This document shows positions 13,852 to 31,424 of a stretch of 39,742 nt of DNA, piece after piece; positions within the stretch are counted from its first letter, which is position 1; every line of letters starts with the position of its first letter. The stretch is taken from contig JADMKN010000036.1 in assembly GCA_015478825.1 (NCBI GenBank), forward strand, positions 1 through 39,742. Direction: 5' to 3'. The position numbers and the translations under genes are program-made. Origin of the DNA: Patulibacter sp. (GTDB lineage: Bacteria > Actinomycetota > Thermoleophilia > Solirubrobacterales > Solirubrobacteraceae). The notes under the pieces were generated by a model. It did not search any database. It saw only the letters and a list, made by a program, of their open reading frames with translations, and was not told the origin of the DNA.

Positions 13852-13911
13852 CAGGGCGCCGCTGGCGGGCGGGCGAGCGGTCGCCCGGCGAGTAGGAGAG
13901 ACTGCGCGACG

Positions 13912-15381
13912 ATGAACTTCGCACGCGACGTCGTGGCCGCGCGGGACCCGGGCGATCCCGCCCTGATCGAGTTGCGCCGCGACGGCGGACGGCGGACGTG
14001 GAGCTTCGCCGAGGTCGACGCGGCGAGCGCGGCCCTGGCGGGCCGGCTCGTCGCCCGCGGCGTGCGGCGCGGCGACGTCGTGATGACGCTGGTCGGAAAC
14101 CGCCCCGAGTGGGTGCTGACGATGGTGGCCTGCTTCCGGATCGGTGCGGTGGCGCTGCCGTGCAACGAGCAGCTTCGGGCCAAGGACCTGCGGCTGCGGC
14201 TCGACGTGGCGGACCCGAAGCTGGTCGTCGTCGACGAGCGCAACCGGCCCGAGCTGGACGCCGCGGTCGGCGCACCCACCGCCACCACCAGCGACCGGCC
14301 GGAGATCCTGGTCGTCCCCGACGACGCGCTGCTGGTCGGCGACGCCCCGCCGTTCGCCGAGCTCGACGCCGAGGACCCGTGCCTGCTGACGTTCACGTCC
14401 GGCACCGAGGGCGACCCGAAGGCCGTCGTCCACGTCCAGCGCTACCTCGACGGGCAGCGGCTGCAGGCCGAGCACTGGCTCGACGCCCGGCCGGGCGACC
14501 TGGTCTGGTGCACCGCCGCGAGCGGCTGGAGCAAGTCGGCTCGCAACGTCTTCGTCGCACCGTGGCTGCGCGGGGCCTGCGCGCTGCTCCACGACCAGCG
14601 GTTCGACCCGGCGGAGCGGCTGCGGATCCTGGCCGACGAGCGGGTCAACGTGCTCTGCATGGCGCCGACCGAGTACCGGGTCATTGCGAAACGGACGTCG
14701 ATCGGGTCGTACCCGGACCTGCGCGGGCTGGTCGCCGCGGGCGAGGCGCTGAACCCCGAGGTGCTCGACGTCTGGCGGGCGGCTACGGGCATCGAGATCC
14801 GCGACGGCTTCGGCCAGACCGAGACCGGCCAGCTCACCGGCGCGCCGCTCGGCGAGCCGGTGCGACCGGGCTCGATGGGGCGGTCGCTGCCCGGCGTGCG
14901 GCTGTGGATCGACGACGGCGAGCTGGTCGTCGACCCCGCGAGCGTGCCGACGTTCTTCCGGGGATACCTCGGCCACGACCCGGCGGTGCGCGACCAACCG
15001 TGGCGGACCGGCGACCGCGTGCGCGAGCAGGACGGCTGGCTGTACTTCGAGGGGCGGACCGACGACGTGATCTCGTCGGCCGGGTACCGGATCGGCCCGT
15101 TCGAGGTCGAGTCCGCGCTGGTCGCCCACCCAGCGGTCGCCGAGGCCGCGGTGGTCGCGGCGCCCGACGAGGAGCGCGGTCAGATCGTGCGGGCGGTGAT
15201 CGTGCTGCGCGACGGGATCGCCGCCGACGACGCGCTGATCGTCGCGCTGCAGGAGCACGTCAAGGCGACCACCGCGCCCTACAAGTATCCGCGCCGGATC
15301 GATGTGGTGGACGAGCTGCCGAAGACGACCAGCGGCAAGATCCAGCGTGCGGCGCTGCGTCGCGGGGTACGTGCCCGGTGA
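13912..15381 (+). CDS. AMP-dependent acyl-CoA synthetase (medium-chain/ACSM-like)
   Basis: A 489-residue adenylate-forming enzyme that activates a carboxylic acid to its acyl-CoA through an acyl-AMP. It shows the P-loop LTFTSGTEGDPKAVVH, the A5 motif DGFGQTETG, the A7/A8 hinge WRTGDRVREQDGWLYFEGRTDDVISSAGYRIGPFEVE, and the A10 catalytic Lys region PKTTSGKIQRAAL. The A8 text is closest to ACSM/benzoate-CoA-ligase-like enzymes. The ATG at 13912 has GGAGAGA (13895-13901) 10 nt upstream. It is slightly shorter than typical ACSM enzymes (about 540), mainly at the N-terminus. The stop overlaps the next gene's ATG (TGATG). Confidence 0.9.
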   Translation: MNFARDVVAARDPGDPALIELRRDGGRRTWSFAEVDAASAALAGRLVARGVRRGDVVMTLVGNRPEWVLTMVACFRIGAVALPCNEQLRAKDLRLRLDVADPKLVVVDERNRPELDAAVGAPTATTSDRPEILVVPDDALLVGDAPPFAELDAEDPCLLTFTSGTEGDPKAVVHVQRYLDGQRLQAEHWLDARPGDLVWCTAASGWSKSARNVFVAPWLRGACALLHDQRFDPAERLRILADERVNVLCMAPTEYRVIAKRTSIGSYPDLRGLVAAGEALNPEVLDVWRAATGIEIRDGFGQTETGQLTGAPLGEPVRPGSMGRSLPGVRLWIDDGELVVDPASVPTFFRGYLGHDPAVRDQPWRTGDRVREQDGWLYFEGRTDDVISSAGYRIGPFEVESALVAHPAVAEAAVVAAPDEERGQIVRAVIVLRDGIAADDALIVALQEHVKATTAPYKYPRRIDVVDELPKTTSGKIQRAALRRGVRAR

Positions 15382-16525: not shown

Positions 16526-16637
16526 GTGCGCTCCCTCACTCACGGGCTTCGCACCGCGTCCTAATCTCGTTGGTGCATCTCCTCTCTCCCTGATGCTTGA
16601 CAGCGCCCCGGCCTCTGGCCGGGGCGTTCGTCGTTTC
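16526..16637 (+). ncRNA. Candidate small RNA unit, copy A (promoter, CU-loop hairpin, terminator)
   Basis: A noncoding unit homologous to 21758-21870. Conserved upstream blocks GTGCGC, CTCAC and ACGGG lead at fixed distance to a -10-like TAATCT (16562-16567), so the RNA would begin near 16573. It then shows GCATC/GATGC pairing (16575-16579 with 16592-16596) around a 12-nt all-pyrimidine loop UCCUCUCUCCCU. A 10-bp terminator stem follows (16604-16613 with 16617-16626, loop TCT) with the tail TTCGTCGTTTC. The loop is complementary to Shine-Dalgarno-type sequence. The expected RNA is about 65 nt. It does not have the C6 loops of the actinobacterial 6C RNA. Confidence 0.55.
16604..16637 (+). terminator. 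Rho-independent terminator of copy A
   Basis: CGCCCCGGCC and GGCCGGGGCG pair perfectly around TCT and are followed by TTCGTCGTTTC. The 20-nt text GGGGCGTTCGTCGTTTCGGG recurs exactly downstream of tRNA-Ala on the other strand. Confidence 0.8.
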
Positions 16638-16665
16638 GGGGGAGGCGTCGAACCCGCTTGGGCCC

Positions 16666-18552
16666 TTACAGCCGCAGCGACACGTTCACGCCACCCAGCC
16701 GTCCGCGCGCGACCCCGTCGCGGATCGTCAGGGTGCCGCGGGCGGTCGAGCGGGCGCCGCTGACCCGCAGCGTTCCGGCCCAGCGCTCGCCGAGCACGAT
16801 CCGGCCGGTCAGGCGCAGGCCCGGAACGTAGCCGTAGTTCCGCAGCTCGAGCACCGCCTGCCCGTCGGCCTCCTTGATCGACGCCGTGCCGGCGCGCAGA
16901 CCCGGCGCGCGCGGTGACTCCTCGTACAACGAGACCGCAAGACCGGCGTCGCGGATGCTCAACCGGACCGCCCGGGTCGAGCGCCGGGCCTTCGCGCGGG
17001 CCGAATCGCCCCGCGGACCGACCGCCGTCAACGAGCGCGGCGGGACCGGCACCAGCGACGGCGCGTCGGGGGTGCGCTTGCCGCGGCAGGCGTTGGTGCT
17101 GACCGTCCGGTCCGCCAGGAACCGCTCGAGCGCGTCGCGCGCGCACTCCTGCGCGAACACCGAGTGCCCTTGGTTGGGGATACGCACCACGGTCGAGCGC
17201 GGGATCTGCGCCGCGACGGCAACCGCGTCCTCGACCGGGGTGCGGACGTCGTCGAGCCCGTTGAGCACGAGCGTCGGCACGTTCGGCAGCGGCCCGCTCG
17301 GCGCGCCGGTGAACGGCGCCCCCGGCCAGACGAGGCAGCCCGCCAGCGCCGGCTGGGTCCGGACGGTCGTTCGCGGCCAGAGGCCGAGCTCGTCCGGGCG
17401 GAGCGCGGCGACCGCGCTGTCGAGCGCCGTCCGCCGCTGCTCCGGGGTCGCGGTTGCGGGCCACGGCAACGACGTCTCGGCGCAGGTCGTCGCCGCGTAC
17501 AGCGCGGCGCTGATCTCGCTCGGATCGTCGTCGTCCTCGTCCTCACCGCCGGCCGCGATCAGCCGCATCAGCAGCGCGGAGTCGCCGTCGAGCGCGGAGC
17601 GGACGGCGGCGGGGAACGCGGCGCGCGAGTAGGGGTCGAGATCGCCGCCGTAGAGCAGGCCGGAGACGAGGCCGGGCTGCTTCGGGCCGCCGACCGAGAT
17701 CGTCTTGACCCGACCCCGGTCGTCGACCGCGCGGCCGCGCAGCGGCTCGGCGTCGAGCTGCGCGGCGAGCTTGCGCGCGTCGCCGACCGGACTGGTGGTG
17801 ATCCCGCGGCAGGCGCCGTCGGCGCAGAGCTGGCGGACCACCCGCACGGCTCCGGCGTACTCGCTGCGAGCGATCCCGTTGACGCCCTGCGGGCCGACCA
17901 CCGAGTCGAGCACCAGGCGTTCCACGTGCTGCGGGTAGAGCCGTGCGTAGACCTGGCTCACCCAGGTCCCGTAGGAGGTGCCGCCGAGCGTGATCCGCTT
18001 GGCGCCGAGCGCCGCCCGCAGGGCGTCGATATCGGCGGCGCTGTCGGATGAGCGGTAGAACCAGCGTGCGTCGCCGAGCTCGCTCGCGCAGCGACCGAAC
18101 TGCTGGGTGATCGCTTCGGCCGGGGCCGCGTCGACCGCGTCGCCAGCGATGTCCGCCACCGACAGCGCCGGACAGCGCAGCGCGGTGCGGCCCGTTCCGC
18201 GCTGGTCGTAGGAGACGATGTCGTAGCCCGGGGCGAGCGACGCGAACAGCTTGGCGGTGTCGCCGTCCTGGATCCCCGCCTGACCAGGGCCGCCGGCGAG
18301 CAGCAGCAGCGGTCCACGGTGGGGCGCCGAGCCGCGCGCCGGGAGCACCCGGACCGGAAGCTCGACGGTTCCCGGCACGACGCCGGTGCGGTCCAGGGGG
18401 ACCGTCAGCGTCGAGCACATCGTGCGCGGGGCGGCGTCGCGCTCGCACGATGTCGGCGTCAGGGCTGGTTGCTGGGCGTGCGCGGGAAGGGCGGCGGCCA
18501 GGGCGGCCACCGTGGACACGGCCACGACGAGCGGGATCGCTCTCATCCTCAT
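16666..18552 (-). CDS. Secreted alpha/beta hydrolase, tripeptidyl-aminopeptidase-like
   Basis: A 628-residue exported enzyme. The signal peptide is residues 1-26 (cleaves near AHA-Q). The alpha/beta hydrolase core has the oxyanion strand LLLLAGGPGQAG at 82-93, SYDQRGTGRT, nucleophile Ser193 in GGTSYGTW, an acid in GLDDVRTPVEDA and the His in NQGHSVFAQ. This arrangement is that of prolyl/tripeptidyl aminopeptidases with a TAP-like C-terminal lobe. About 140 residues follow the CRGKR end of the usual fold. They are beta-rich and repetitive in style (TGRIVLGERWAGTLRVSG, GTLTIRDGVARGRLGGVNVSLRL), possibly a cell-wall or lid-type appendage. ATG 18552 was chosen; ATG 18546 is nearly equivalent. Confidence 0.85.
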   Translation of the reverse strand: MRMRAIPLVVAVSTVAALAAALPAHAQQPALTPTSCERDAAPRTMCSTLTVPLDRTGVVPGTVELPVRVLPARGSAPHRGPLLLLAGGPGQAGIQDGDTAKLFASLAPGYDIVSYDQRGTGRTALRCPALSVADIAGDAVDAAPAEAITQQFGRCASELGDARWFYRSSDSAADIDALRAALGAKRITLGGTSYGTWVSQVYARLYPQHVERLVLDSVVGPQGVNGIARSEYAGAVRVVRQLCADGACRGITTSPVGDARKLAAQLDAEPLRGRAVDDRGRVKTISVGGPKQPGLVSGLLYGGDLDPYSRAAFPAAVRSALDGDSALLMRLIAAGGEDEDDDDPSEISAALYAATTCAETSLPWPATATPEQRRTALDSAVAALRPDELGLWPRTTVRTQPALAGCLVWPGAPFTGAPSGPLPNVPTLVLNGLDDVRTPVEDAVAVAAQIPRSTVVRIPNQGHSVFAQECARDALERFLADRTVSTNACRGKRTPDAPSLVPVPPRSLTAVGPRGDSARAKARRSTRAVRLSIRDAGLAVSLYEESPRAPGLRAGTASIKEADGQAVLELRNYGYVPGLRLTGRIVLGERWAGTLRVSGARSTARGTLTIRDGVARGRLGGVNVSLRL

Positions 18553-18944
18553 GCTGCTCTCTTCGGTTCGAGATGGTCGGCGAACGACGCGGTACGGGCG
18601 AGGGCCACGGCGCGTCCGCCGGGCCGAGCCTATCGACGGAGGACCGGTGGATCGCACCACCGCATTCATGCGCGGCCACCCGGGACCGTGGTGACGTTCG
18701 TCAGCAGCGGGCCGGCCCGGGTCGGCACGACGCCGGCCCCCGGGCCCCCGCTACGCTTCGTGACCGGCGGTTCGGCACCGAGTCGTCACGATCGCCCGTC
18801 CCCGTCGGAGGTCTCACCGTTGCGGAGTCCCTGGTCCCCGTCCCCCTGCCGTGCACCGCTCGCCGGTCGCGTGACGAGGTCCGTGGCGTGACGCCCTTCG
18901 GGGTGCCGGCCACCGCGGGAGCCTTCGGGCACCCGCCGGTCGCG
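18553..18944. other. 392-bp divergent intergenic region, nothing definite
   Basis: The region separates the hydrolase (minus) from the DedA gene (plus). It contains GC-rich self-complementary runs around 18705-18750 and a TACGCT near 18751. I see no convincing gene, RNA or operator. Confidence 0.5.
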
Positions 18945-21757: not shown

Positions 21758-21870
21758 GTGCGCAGGCTCACAAACGGGTCCGCGACGCCGCCCTAATCTC
21801 GTTGGTGCATCTCTTCTCTCTCCCTGATGCTCGACGCGCCCCGGCCTCTGGTCGGGGCGCTCGTCGTTTC
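21758..21870 (+). ncRNA. Candidate small RNA unit, copy B
   Basis: The second copy of the unit described at 16526-16637. It has GTGCGC, CTCAC and ACGGG, then TAATCT (21794-21799) at the same spacing. GCATC/GATGC pair (21807-21811 with 21826-21830) around a 14-nt pyrimidine loop UCUUCUCUCUCCCU. The terminator stem GCGCCCCGGCC/GGTCGGGGCGC has the same TCT loop and a TCGTCGTTTC tail. The loop is 2 nt longer than copy A and the linker is 2 nt shorter, so both hairpins are kept despite length changes. It ends 78 nt before the collagen-like gene. Confidence 0.55.
21836..21870 (+). terminator. Rho-independent terminator of copy B
   Basis: An 11-bp stem with one imperfect pair (21836-21846 with 21850-21860) and loop TCT is followed by TCGTCGTTTC. 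It matches the copy A terminator closely. Confidence 0.78.
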
Positions 21871-21933
21871 GGAGGTCGGTGGGCACCGTGGGCCGAGGGA
21901 CGCAGATCCATGGCCCAGACAAGCTTCGTGCTC

Positions 21934-21948: not shown

Positions 21949-23613
21949 ATGAGTACTCGCCTCCTGTCTCCTCCGCGGGCGGTGCCGCTGCTCGCGGTCG
22001 CCGTTCTGCTGGCCGCGCTCGCGCTGATCACGCCTCCTCCCGCCGCCGCGGCGGAGCGTCCATCCCGGCTCTACGCCTGCGTGACGCAGGCCTACAAGAC
22101 GCTCAACCTCAGCACGAAGCGGGCCCGCTGCCCGCGCGGCGAGCGCAAGATCTCGTGGAGCGCGGGCGGGGAGCGTGGCAAACGGGGCCCGCGCGGCGCC
22201 CGCGGACTCCAGGGCGTGACCGGATCCGCCGGGGCGCCGGGTGCCGTCGGTGTCACGGGCGCCACCGGGGCCGTCGGTGCGACCGGCGCCCAGGGCGCCC
22301 CGGGCGAACGGGGCTCCGCCGGCCCGTCCGGTCCCGCCGGCGCGCAGGGCCCCGTCGGTCCGGCCGGTTCGCCCGACACCCCCGACGACGTCCTCGCCAA
22401 GCTGCTCCAGGTCGACGGTCCCGGTTCGGGCCTCGACAGCGAGTACTTCGGTGGCCTGGCCGTCGACGTCTTCCAGAAGCGGGTCACCGGGACCTGCGCG
22501 GCGGGCAGCGCAATCCGCGAGGTCGCCGAGGACGGCACCGTCGAATGCCAGTCGACCGCGGTCGAGGTGCCGCTGGCGTTGACCGTCCCGGCGGACGAGC
22601 CGCAGCACAACGCCCTGAACATCGAGCTCCCCAACACCTCGGGAAGCCGGGGCGTCAACGTCCAGCACAACGGCGTCGGCCCGGGGGTCTTCGCCAACAC
22701 GATCGGGGGGAACTCGATCTGGGGCATCACCGGGTCGATCTCGTCGGCCGCCGTGATCGGCGACTCGAGCAGCGGCGAGGCCGTCGTCGCCCGCCAGAAC
22801 GGCGCGATCTGCGAGCAGAACATCGGCAAGTGCAACGGGATCGGTGCGCTCGTCGGGCGGCACGACGGCCAGGGCGGCTACGGCGTGCGCGGCTTCGTGA
22901 CGGACCCGAACGGGGCGATCGGCGTGCTCGGCCAGGCCGGCATCAGCGGCGGTACGGGCACGGGCGTCCGCGGCGAGAACGTCAACGCCGCGAACGCCGG
23001 CAACGCCGTCGAGGGCGTTACCAACGGGCAGGGGGCCGGGATCTTCGGGCAGGGACCGAACCTGGCGGGCCTGTTCAACGGCGACGTCCAGATCAACGGC
23101 GACCTGACCGTCACCGGCACCACCAACGGCTTCACGGTCGACGATCCCCGGTCGCCGACGACCCAGTCACTGACCCACACGCCGGTCCAGACCGACGAGC
23201 TGACGGTCGAGTACTCCGGCAACGTGACCACCGACGCCGAGGGGCGCGCAACGGTGCACCTGCCGGACTACGCGACGACGCTCGGCACGGACTGGCGCTA
23301 CCAGCTCACGCCGATCGGCCGGTTCGGTCAAGTGATCGTCGAGCGCGAGGTCGACGCGGCCGGCAGCTTCGTCGTGCGCAGCGAGACGGGCGACACCAAG
23401 GTCTCGTGGGCGGTGACCGGCGTGCGGCACGACCCCGAGGCGACGAGCAGCGCGCTGCAGGTCGAGACGCAGAAGACCGGGGCCGACCGCGGACGCTACG
23501 CCGATCCGTCGCACTACGGCGCCCCGGCCACGCGCTCGCTCGCGCGCCGCGTGGCGCCGACCACCGAGCAGCCGGGCGCGGCTTCGCGTCCGAAGCTGGC
23601 GTCGGAGCGGTAG
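21949..23613 (+). CDS. Secreted collagen-like protein with C-terminal beta-repeat region
   Basis: A 554-residue exported protein. The signal peptide is residues 1-35 (cleaves near AAA-E). A short head carries two cysteines and the phrase ERKISW (residues 38-70). Twenty-three uninterrupted Gly-X-Y triplets run from residue 74 to 142; charged at the start (GERGKRGPRGARG), then rich in GAT/GAP/GPA. After a linker, a Cys-flanked block (CAAGSAIREVAEDGTVEC, about 184-201) and a long Gly/Asn-rich beta-repeat region (about 225-385) resemble tail-fibre or beta-helix sequence. The C-terminus (about 400-510) is beta-rich. Collagen-like proteins of this head type are frequent in Thermoleophilia. The likely role is in surface structure or adhesion. 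Confidence 0.88.
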   Translation: MSTRLLSPPRAVPLLAVAVLLAALALITPPPAAAAERPSRLYACVTQAYKTLNLSTKRARCPRGERKISWSAGGERGKRGPRGARGLQGVTGSAGAPGAVGVTGATGAVGATGAQGAPGERGSAGPSGPAGAQGPVGPAGSPDTPDDVLAKLLQVDGPGSGLDSEYFGGLAVDVFQKRVTGTCAAGSAIREVAEDGTVECQSTAVEVPLALTVPADEPQHNALNIELPNTSGSRGVNVQHNGVGPGVFANTIGGNSIWGITGSISSAAVIGDSSSGEAVVARQNGAICEQNIGKCNGIGALVGRHDGQGGYGVRGFVTDPNGAIGVLGQAGISGGTGTGVRGENVNAANAGNAVEGVTNGQGAGIFGQGPNLAGLFNGDVQINGDLTVTGTTNGFTVDDPRSPTTQSLTHTPVQTDELTVEYSGNVTTDAEGRATVHLPDYATTLGTDWRYQLTPIGRFGQVIVEREVDAAGSFVVRSETGDTKVSWAVTGVRHDPEATSSALQVETQKTGADRGRYADPSHYGAPATRSLARRVAPTTEQPGAASRPKLASER

Positions 23614-31296: not shown

Positions 31297-31315
31297 GAGC
31301 GGGTGCCCGAAACGA

Positions 31316-31343
31316 CGAACGCCCCGCGATCGCGGGGCGTTCG
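31316..31343 (-). terminator. 28-bp perfect palindrome, terminator of tRNA-Ala
   Basis: The 28-bp sequence centred between 31329 and 31330 is entirely self-complementary. On the minus strand it is followed by TCGTTTCGGG. Its 3' half plus tail is identical over 20 nt to the terminator of small RNA copy A. It can also terminate the PadR-partner transcript from the other side. Confidence 0.85.
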
Positions 31344-31351
31344 GCTGGAGG

Positions 31352-31424
31352 TGGAGGCTAGGGGATTCGAACCCCTGACCCCCTGCTTGCAAAGCAGGTG
31401 CTCTACCAACTGAGCTAAGCCCCC
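31352..31424 (-). tRNA. tRNA-Ala, anticodon UGC
   Basis: A 73-nt cloverleaf. The acceptor GGGGGCT pairs with AGCCTCC (one G-U). The D-arm is AGCTCAGTTGGTAGAGC, the anticodon arm CCTGCTTTGCAAAGCAGG reads TGC, and the T-arm is AGGGGTTCGAATCCCCT with discriminator A. CCA is not encoded. A strong palindromic terminator follows 8 nt downstream. Confidence 0.97.

Follow-up and report, generated by a model that had tools for sequence, protein, structure and literature searches.

The window considered here, the whole stretch of 39,742 nucleotides of Patulibacter sp. contig JADMKN010000036.1 (72% GC), carries two intergenic segments, copy A at 16526-16639 and copy B at 21758-21872, that represent one shared element. 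The copies are in the same orientation and separated by 5.2 kb, and a BLAST search of copy A against the whole genome recovered copy B at 84% identity (E 5.1e-29), in agreement with an earlier reading of the letters by themselves (the sequence-only reading) that had aligned two noncoding segments over about 112 bp. Within the 3.37 Mb assembly an element of this kind is present at these two places only, and TAATCTCGTTGGTGCATC was found twice in the window and never in shuffles. Copy A is flanked by a gene for an NPCBM_assoc secreted protein and by a convergent alpha/beta-hydrolase gene on the opposite strand (16666-18669), and copy B by a bPH_2 gene and a collagen-like gene. The latter (21949-23613), which lies directly 3' of copy B on the same strand and encodes a secreted protein with collagen triple-helix repeats, has no obvious Shine-Dalgarno site. 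As the neighbouring genes are unrelated, a larger duplication does not explain the two copies. The features of the locus are as follows.

13894-13901, plus strand: Shine-Dalgarno site AGGAGAGA of the acyl-CoA synthetase gene (ATG at 13912), a possible mid-ranking target by duplex and cofold prediction
16526-16567, plus strand: promoter-like region of copy A, with GTGCGC (16526-16531), CTCAC (16535-16539), ACGGG (16542-16546) and the -10-like TAATCT (16562-16567)
16573-16636, plus strand: predicted small RNA of copy A, about 64 nt, ends inferred from the position of TAATCT; fold z -6.8
16575-16596, plus strand: hairpin 1 of copy A, GCATC, a 12-nt pyrimidine loop (16580-16591) and GATGC
16603-16639, plus strand: GC-rich terminator hairpin of copy A, stem 16603-16627, tail TCGTCGTTTCGG
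21758-21799, plus strand: promoter-like region of copy B by alignment with copy A, with GTGCGC, CTCAC, ACGGG and TAATCT (21794-21799)
21805-21869, plus strand: predicted small RNA of copy B, about 65 nt, ends likewise putative; fold z -6.2
21807-21830, plus strand: hairpin 1 of copy B, GCATC, a 14-nt pyrimidine loop (21812-21825) and GATGC
21836-21872, plus strand: terminator hairpin of copy B, stem 21836-21860, and tail; two substitutions relative to copy A

The spacing of GTGCGC, CTCAC, ACGGG and TAATCT is identical in the two copies, as had been proposed from the letters. A recognisable sigma-70 -35 element was not found among the upstream blocks of either copy, and no place in the genome beyond copies A and B matched the upstream blocks plus TAATCT within 2 mismatches. 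A regulon sharing this promoter was rejected on the grounds that only the two copies match. Given blocks that lack a sigma-70 -35 and have no other match in the genome, copies A and B are probably under one common control, by an activator or an alternative sigma factor.

Folding was carried out on the 64-65 nt RNAs that begin where TAATCT would set the start, that is, with transcription starting near 16573 in copy A and near 21805 in copy B. The two RNAs have the same predicted fold, a hairpin 1 of 5 bp followed by the GC-rich terminator, and the GCATC/GATGC hairpin and terminator of the sequence-only reading are thus present in both. The fold z of the full RNA derives mostly from the terminator; taken alone, hairpin 1 exceeds shuffled sequences in stability by only a small margin (z -1.0 and -2.1). 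Its loop consists entirely of pyrimidines in both copies, as had been stated, and the loop core CUCUCUCCCU (16582-16591 in copy A) has no predicted base pairs in either copy; the predicted loops are UCCUCUCUCCCU and UCUUCUCUCUCCCU, and UCU in the terminator. The terminator tail is T-poor and fails a simple terminator scan. A terminator of the form GCCCCGG..CCGGGGC-TTCGTCGTT recurs in relatives behind unrelated genes, and the terminator of the copies is a generic one of the lineage. Elsewhere in the window, a 21-bp match on the minus strand (31306-31326) comprises terminator sequence only and adjoins a tRNA gene (31352-31424), downstream of which the terminator tail CGTTCGTCGTTTCGGG recurs; this type of terminator is common in the lineage.

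The unpaired pyrimidine loop supports the earlier suggestion that it is able to pair with Shine-Dalgarno sites, and candidate targets were ranked from searches together with 60 sampled contig stretches. AGGGAGAGAG, the complement of the loop 10-mer shared by the copies, occurs just three times in the 3.37 Mb genome outside the copies themselves: one ends 4 nt before the GTG of a luciferase-like monooxygenase gene (Bac_luciferase family) on contig C46, one ends 1 nt before the ATG of a Liv-type lipoprotein gene (Peripla_BP_6) on contig C243, and the third lies within a coding frame. Loop pairing at the first two sites is predicted to cover the Shine-Dalgarno site in each case; comparable purine 10-mers in the relatives' loci were at starts in 9 of 234 instances. 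Other strong sites lie in the same gene group on C243: CAGGGAGAGACATGACGAGGAGAGACAGATG of a SnoaL-like gene gives -23.7 kcal/mol for loop A and -25.8 for loop B, and a second binding-protein gene has a site at -17.9 kcal/mol, pairing being predicted for two of the three tandem Peripla_BP_6 genes. On C46 a second luciferase-like gene reaches -16.6 and an AMP-binding gene -14.6 kcal/mol. The SnoaL-like gene and the three tandem Peripla_BP_6 genes stand in one row (C243:3000-11956 of the same genome, locus L170), and the 5' UTR of the former, with which the loop is predicted to pair most strongly, contains CAGGGAGAGA and AGGAGAGA, two purine blocks separated by 8 nt. The two best sites on C46 and C243, leaving aside the two that the search itself had selected, were better than 99.6% of permuted loops, in a comparison that was made after the matches had been seen and in which the sites of the tandem, paralogous binding-protein genes are not fully independent. 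The GGAGAGA pointed out at 13895-13901 does lie ahead of the ATG at 13912, and the acyl-CoA synthetase gene is a plausible target as had been proposed, but a mid-ranking one: its duplex energies are -16.0/-17.3 and its net cofold gains -6.7/-9.0 kcal/mol (copies A/B), compared with a net cofold gain of about -20 kcal/mol for the Liv-type binding-protein mRNA.

These predicted pairings suggest, rather than prove, a specific regulon composed of genes for uptake and catabolism. The notion that the loop serves as a general anti-Shine-Dalgarno device was rejected, as the real loop was no better than permuted loops either at the start sites of the window alone or across 382 start regions sampled elsewhere in the genome, on 60 contig stretches, where seven of the 382 reached -17 kcal/mol or below. 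This lack of a genome-wide preference for start regions, together with the fact that any pyrimidine loop fits purine-rich Shine-Dalgarno sites to some degree, lends weight to an alternative in which the small RNA is real and acts otherwise, its CU-rich loop binding a protein as a decoy or sponge, or pairing elsewhere, with the Shine-Dalgarno matches incidental. Such a role is possible, with something over one chance in three given to it, but of the three perfect complements outside the copies two fall exactly at starts, and more strong sites lie in the C243 cluster.

Two covariance models, R1 (promoter plus hairpin) and R2 (RNA plus terminator), were used to look for the element in a further 145 genomes from its taxonomic family, seven of them in the same genus; in its own genome the models recovered copies A and B and nothing more. 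R1 scored 106 and 101 bits on the two copies, and its best foreign match among the 145 genomes was at 25.6 bits, in alignments from which the -10, loop or stem is missing; foreign matches to R2 in the same genomes were at most 35.9 bits and had mainly the terminator in common. An 18-nt core, searched with up to 3 mismatches, gave two exact matches in its own genome and, elsewhere, scattered matches with 3 mismatches (one with 2) at about the rate of a reversed control. Genus-mates share the GDH gene (about 76%) but no neighbourhood around it. A mobile origin was also considered and rejected, viral contigs giving no match and plasmids and phages matching the terminator part only. A ‘new family’, in the usual sense of the term, is therefore not what the two covariance models recover from the family; because no convincing homologue was found in relatives, with only the terminator shared, the element is confined to this one among the genomes searched, and is either young, evolving rapidly or lost from the others.

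When identity between the copies is counted block by block, the stretch GTGCGC..CTCAC..ACGGG retains 16 of 21 positions at fixed spacing, the -10 region CCTAATCTCGTTGGT 15 of 15, hairpin 1 all 22 (plus a 2-nt indel), the linker between hairpin 1 and the terminator four of five (plus a 1-nt indel) and the terminator 35 of 37, while the 13-nt spacer between ACGGG and TAATCT has drifted to chance level (4/13) and the ungapped flanks fall to 3-12 matches per 20 nt. A drifted spacer and flanks alongside kept promoter blocks, hairpin and terminator are best explained by selection on a transcription unit. The sequence-only reading had argued for a selected RNA on different grounds, namely that the loop and linker changed by 2 nt while both stems stayed intact. 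The loop does differ by 2 nt, through a slip in a CT repeat, and pairing is indeed kept; the linker differs by 1 nt only, stem 1 never varies, and a repeat slip is weaker evidence. Covariation, which had been put forward as a check on the stems, was not found between copies A and B. The invariant stem of hairpin 1 can provide none, the sole stem changes are the two terminator substitutions (one-sided G-C/G-U swaps that keep pairing), and where there is no homologue there is no covariation to be drawn from relatives.

The same counts bear on the alternative that the copies are intergenic DNA that has no function or was duplicated recently, similar through recency or gene conversion. Two copies only, in close proximity and in one orientation, and absent from relatives, are what such an event would leave behind. 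It is nevertheless improbable, as either recency or conversion would have preserved the spacer too, whereas identity is limited to functional-looking blocks, and both terminator substitutions keep pairing. Least probable is a cis-acting leader or attenuator, or a leaderless micro-ORF: a same-strand gene (21949) does follow copy B and copy A can be read as GTG-CAT-CTC-CTC-TCT-CCC-TGA, but the convergent, opposite-strand neighbour of copy A makes a leader role unlikely for that copy, and a conserved peptide is ruled out because copy B is thrown out of frame by the indels of 2 nt and 1 nt.

The reading that we favour is that copies A and B are a real small RNA gene, to which we assign a probability of about 0.8; the claim that the element is a small-RNA gene in its own right, present twice, is upheld, with an unpaired pyrimidine loop and no Rfam family at the cut-off. 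In this scenario two paralogous genes would each give rise to an independently transcribed, trans-acting small RNA of about 65 nt, confined to this genome among those searched. The loop with CUCUCUCCCU would pair with purine-rich Shine-Dalgarno sites of the AGGGAGAGAG type in a small set of mRNAs, chiefly those of the Liv-type ABC substrate-binding-protein cluster (C243) and the luciferase-like monooxygenase genes (C46), and pairing would block ribosome binding and lower the expression of uptake and catabolic genes. That the RNA is real and that it lowers target expression by loop pairing with Shine-Dalgarno sites are separate propositions, and the second we hold tentatively, at slightly worse than even odds. 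What emerges is a credible pair of small RNA genes, new in sequence and of a known functional kind, whose target set is its most testable part; as the idea predicts a small number of specific targets, it can be tested directly.

A literature search did not find small RNA work on this lineage. If true, the proposal would add a sequence-unrelated pair of sibling small RNAs in this lineage, and would support the repeated origin of pyrimidine-loop, Shine-Dalgarno-masking small RNAs that converge on the binding proteins of ABC transporters. In its fullest form it holds that this is a new, lineage-restricted sibling pair with a shared non-canonical promoter, of independent origin in a high-GC lineage, its loop having co-evolved with ribosome-binding sites in a regulon of Liv-type transporter and luciferase-like monooxygenase genes, and that it is a convergent counterpart of AbcR1/2; taken as a whole, this seems unlikely.

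With regard to known small RNAs, no Rfam family was matched at gathering thresholds. SorX (RF02784, Rhodobacter) resembles the element in being a short RNA with CUCCCUG just 5' of a GC-rich terminator, but with a score of 9.1 bits, where the cut-off is 46.6, homology is unsupported. The closer comparison is with 6C/B11 (RF01066) of the Actinobacteria, likewise short, with two adjacent hairpins of which the second is the terminator. At a relaxed threshold copy B aligns to 6C end to end (17.9 bits, cut-off 47, E 1-2), while copy A is not listed up to E 10; the alignment is taken as shared layout rather than homology. Membership was rejected both by score, which is below the gathering cut-off, and by the loops, which have no run of six C: loop 1 is of alternating CU and is the only such loop, the terminator loop being UCU. 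The contrast with 6C that had been drawn on C-runs was right, and the statement that no described family has this layout is correct as regards Rfam at its cut-offs, but the overall plan, a pyrimidine-loop hairpin and then a terminator, is 6C-like. A search of 146 family genomes returned no 6C above the cut-off, in a test so insensitive that C. glutamicum itself was recovered only below it. Two sub-threshold matches were seen in the family. One (L124, G096:C57:767-837; 29.8 bits) is a long perfect inverted repeat GCCCGCGAACTTTGGCGATTTGGTTCG with a CCCCCCC-containing loop and a T-run about 20 nt downstream. The other (L126, G015:C1:4346685-4346757, minus strand; 30.2 bits) has two adjacent hairpins with the pyrimidine-rich loops CGACCTCTTCCG and CTTCCCACCTCC, and may be a separate RNA that shares this layout.

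In function, the C-rich loops of B11/6C pair beside ribosome-binding sites, whereby translation is impeded and mRNA decay promoted (PMC12395582, PMC10470900), and the copies share with them pyrimidine loops able to pair near such sites, the complementary sites here being predicted. AbcR1 and AbcR2 (alpha-r15) of the alphaproteobacteria are likewise two similar small RNAs with their own promoters and terminators (PMC3712013) and an anti-Shine-Dalgarno stretch in the loop of the 5' hairpin; the loop of AbcR1 silences livK by pairing with its ribosome-binding site (PMC3712013), and a Liv-type ABC binding protein is a predicted target here. Conversely, AbcR1/2 have three hairpins and an Hfq-type A/U region where the copies have two hairpins and no such region, they carry UCCUCCC in place of CUCUCUCCCU, they form a pair within one intergenic region rather than 5.2 kb apart, and they belong to a different phylum. 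Homology to AbcR1/2 was rejected, as two hairpins are predicted, UCCUCCC is in no loop, and no Rfam family matches at the gathering cut-off. By analogy, the RNA would repress a few mRNAs as AbcR1 does livK and as B11/6C does its targets: it works like 6C/B11 or AbcR1 and is a member of neither.
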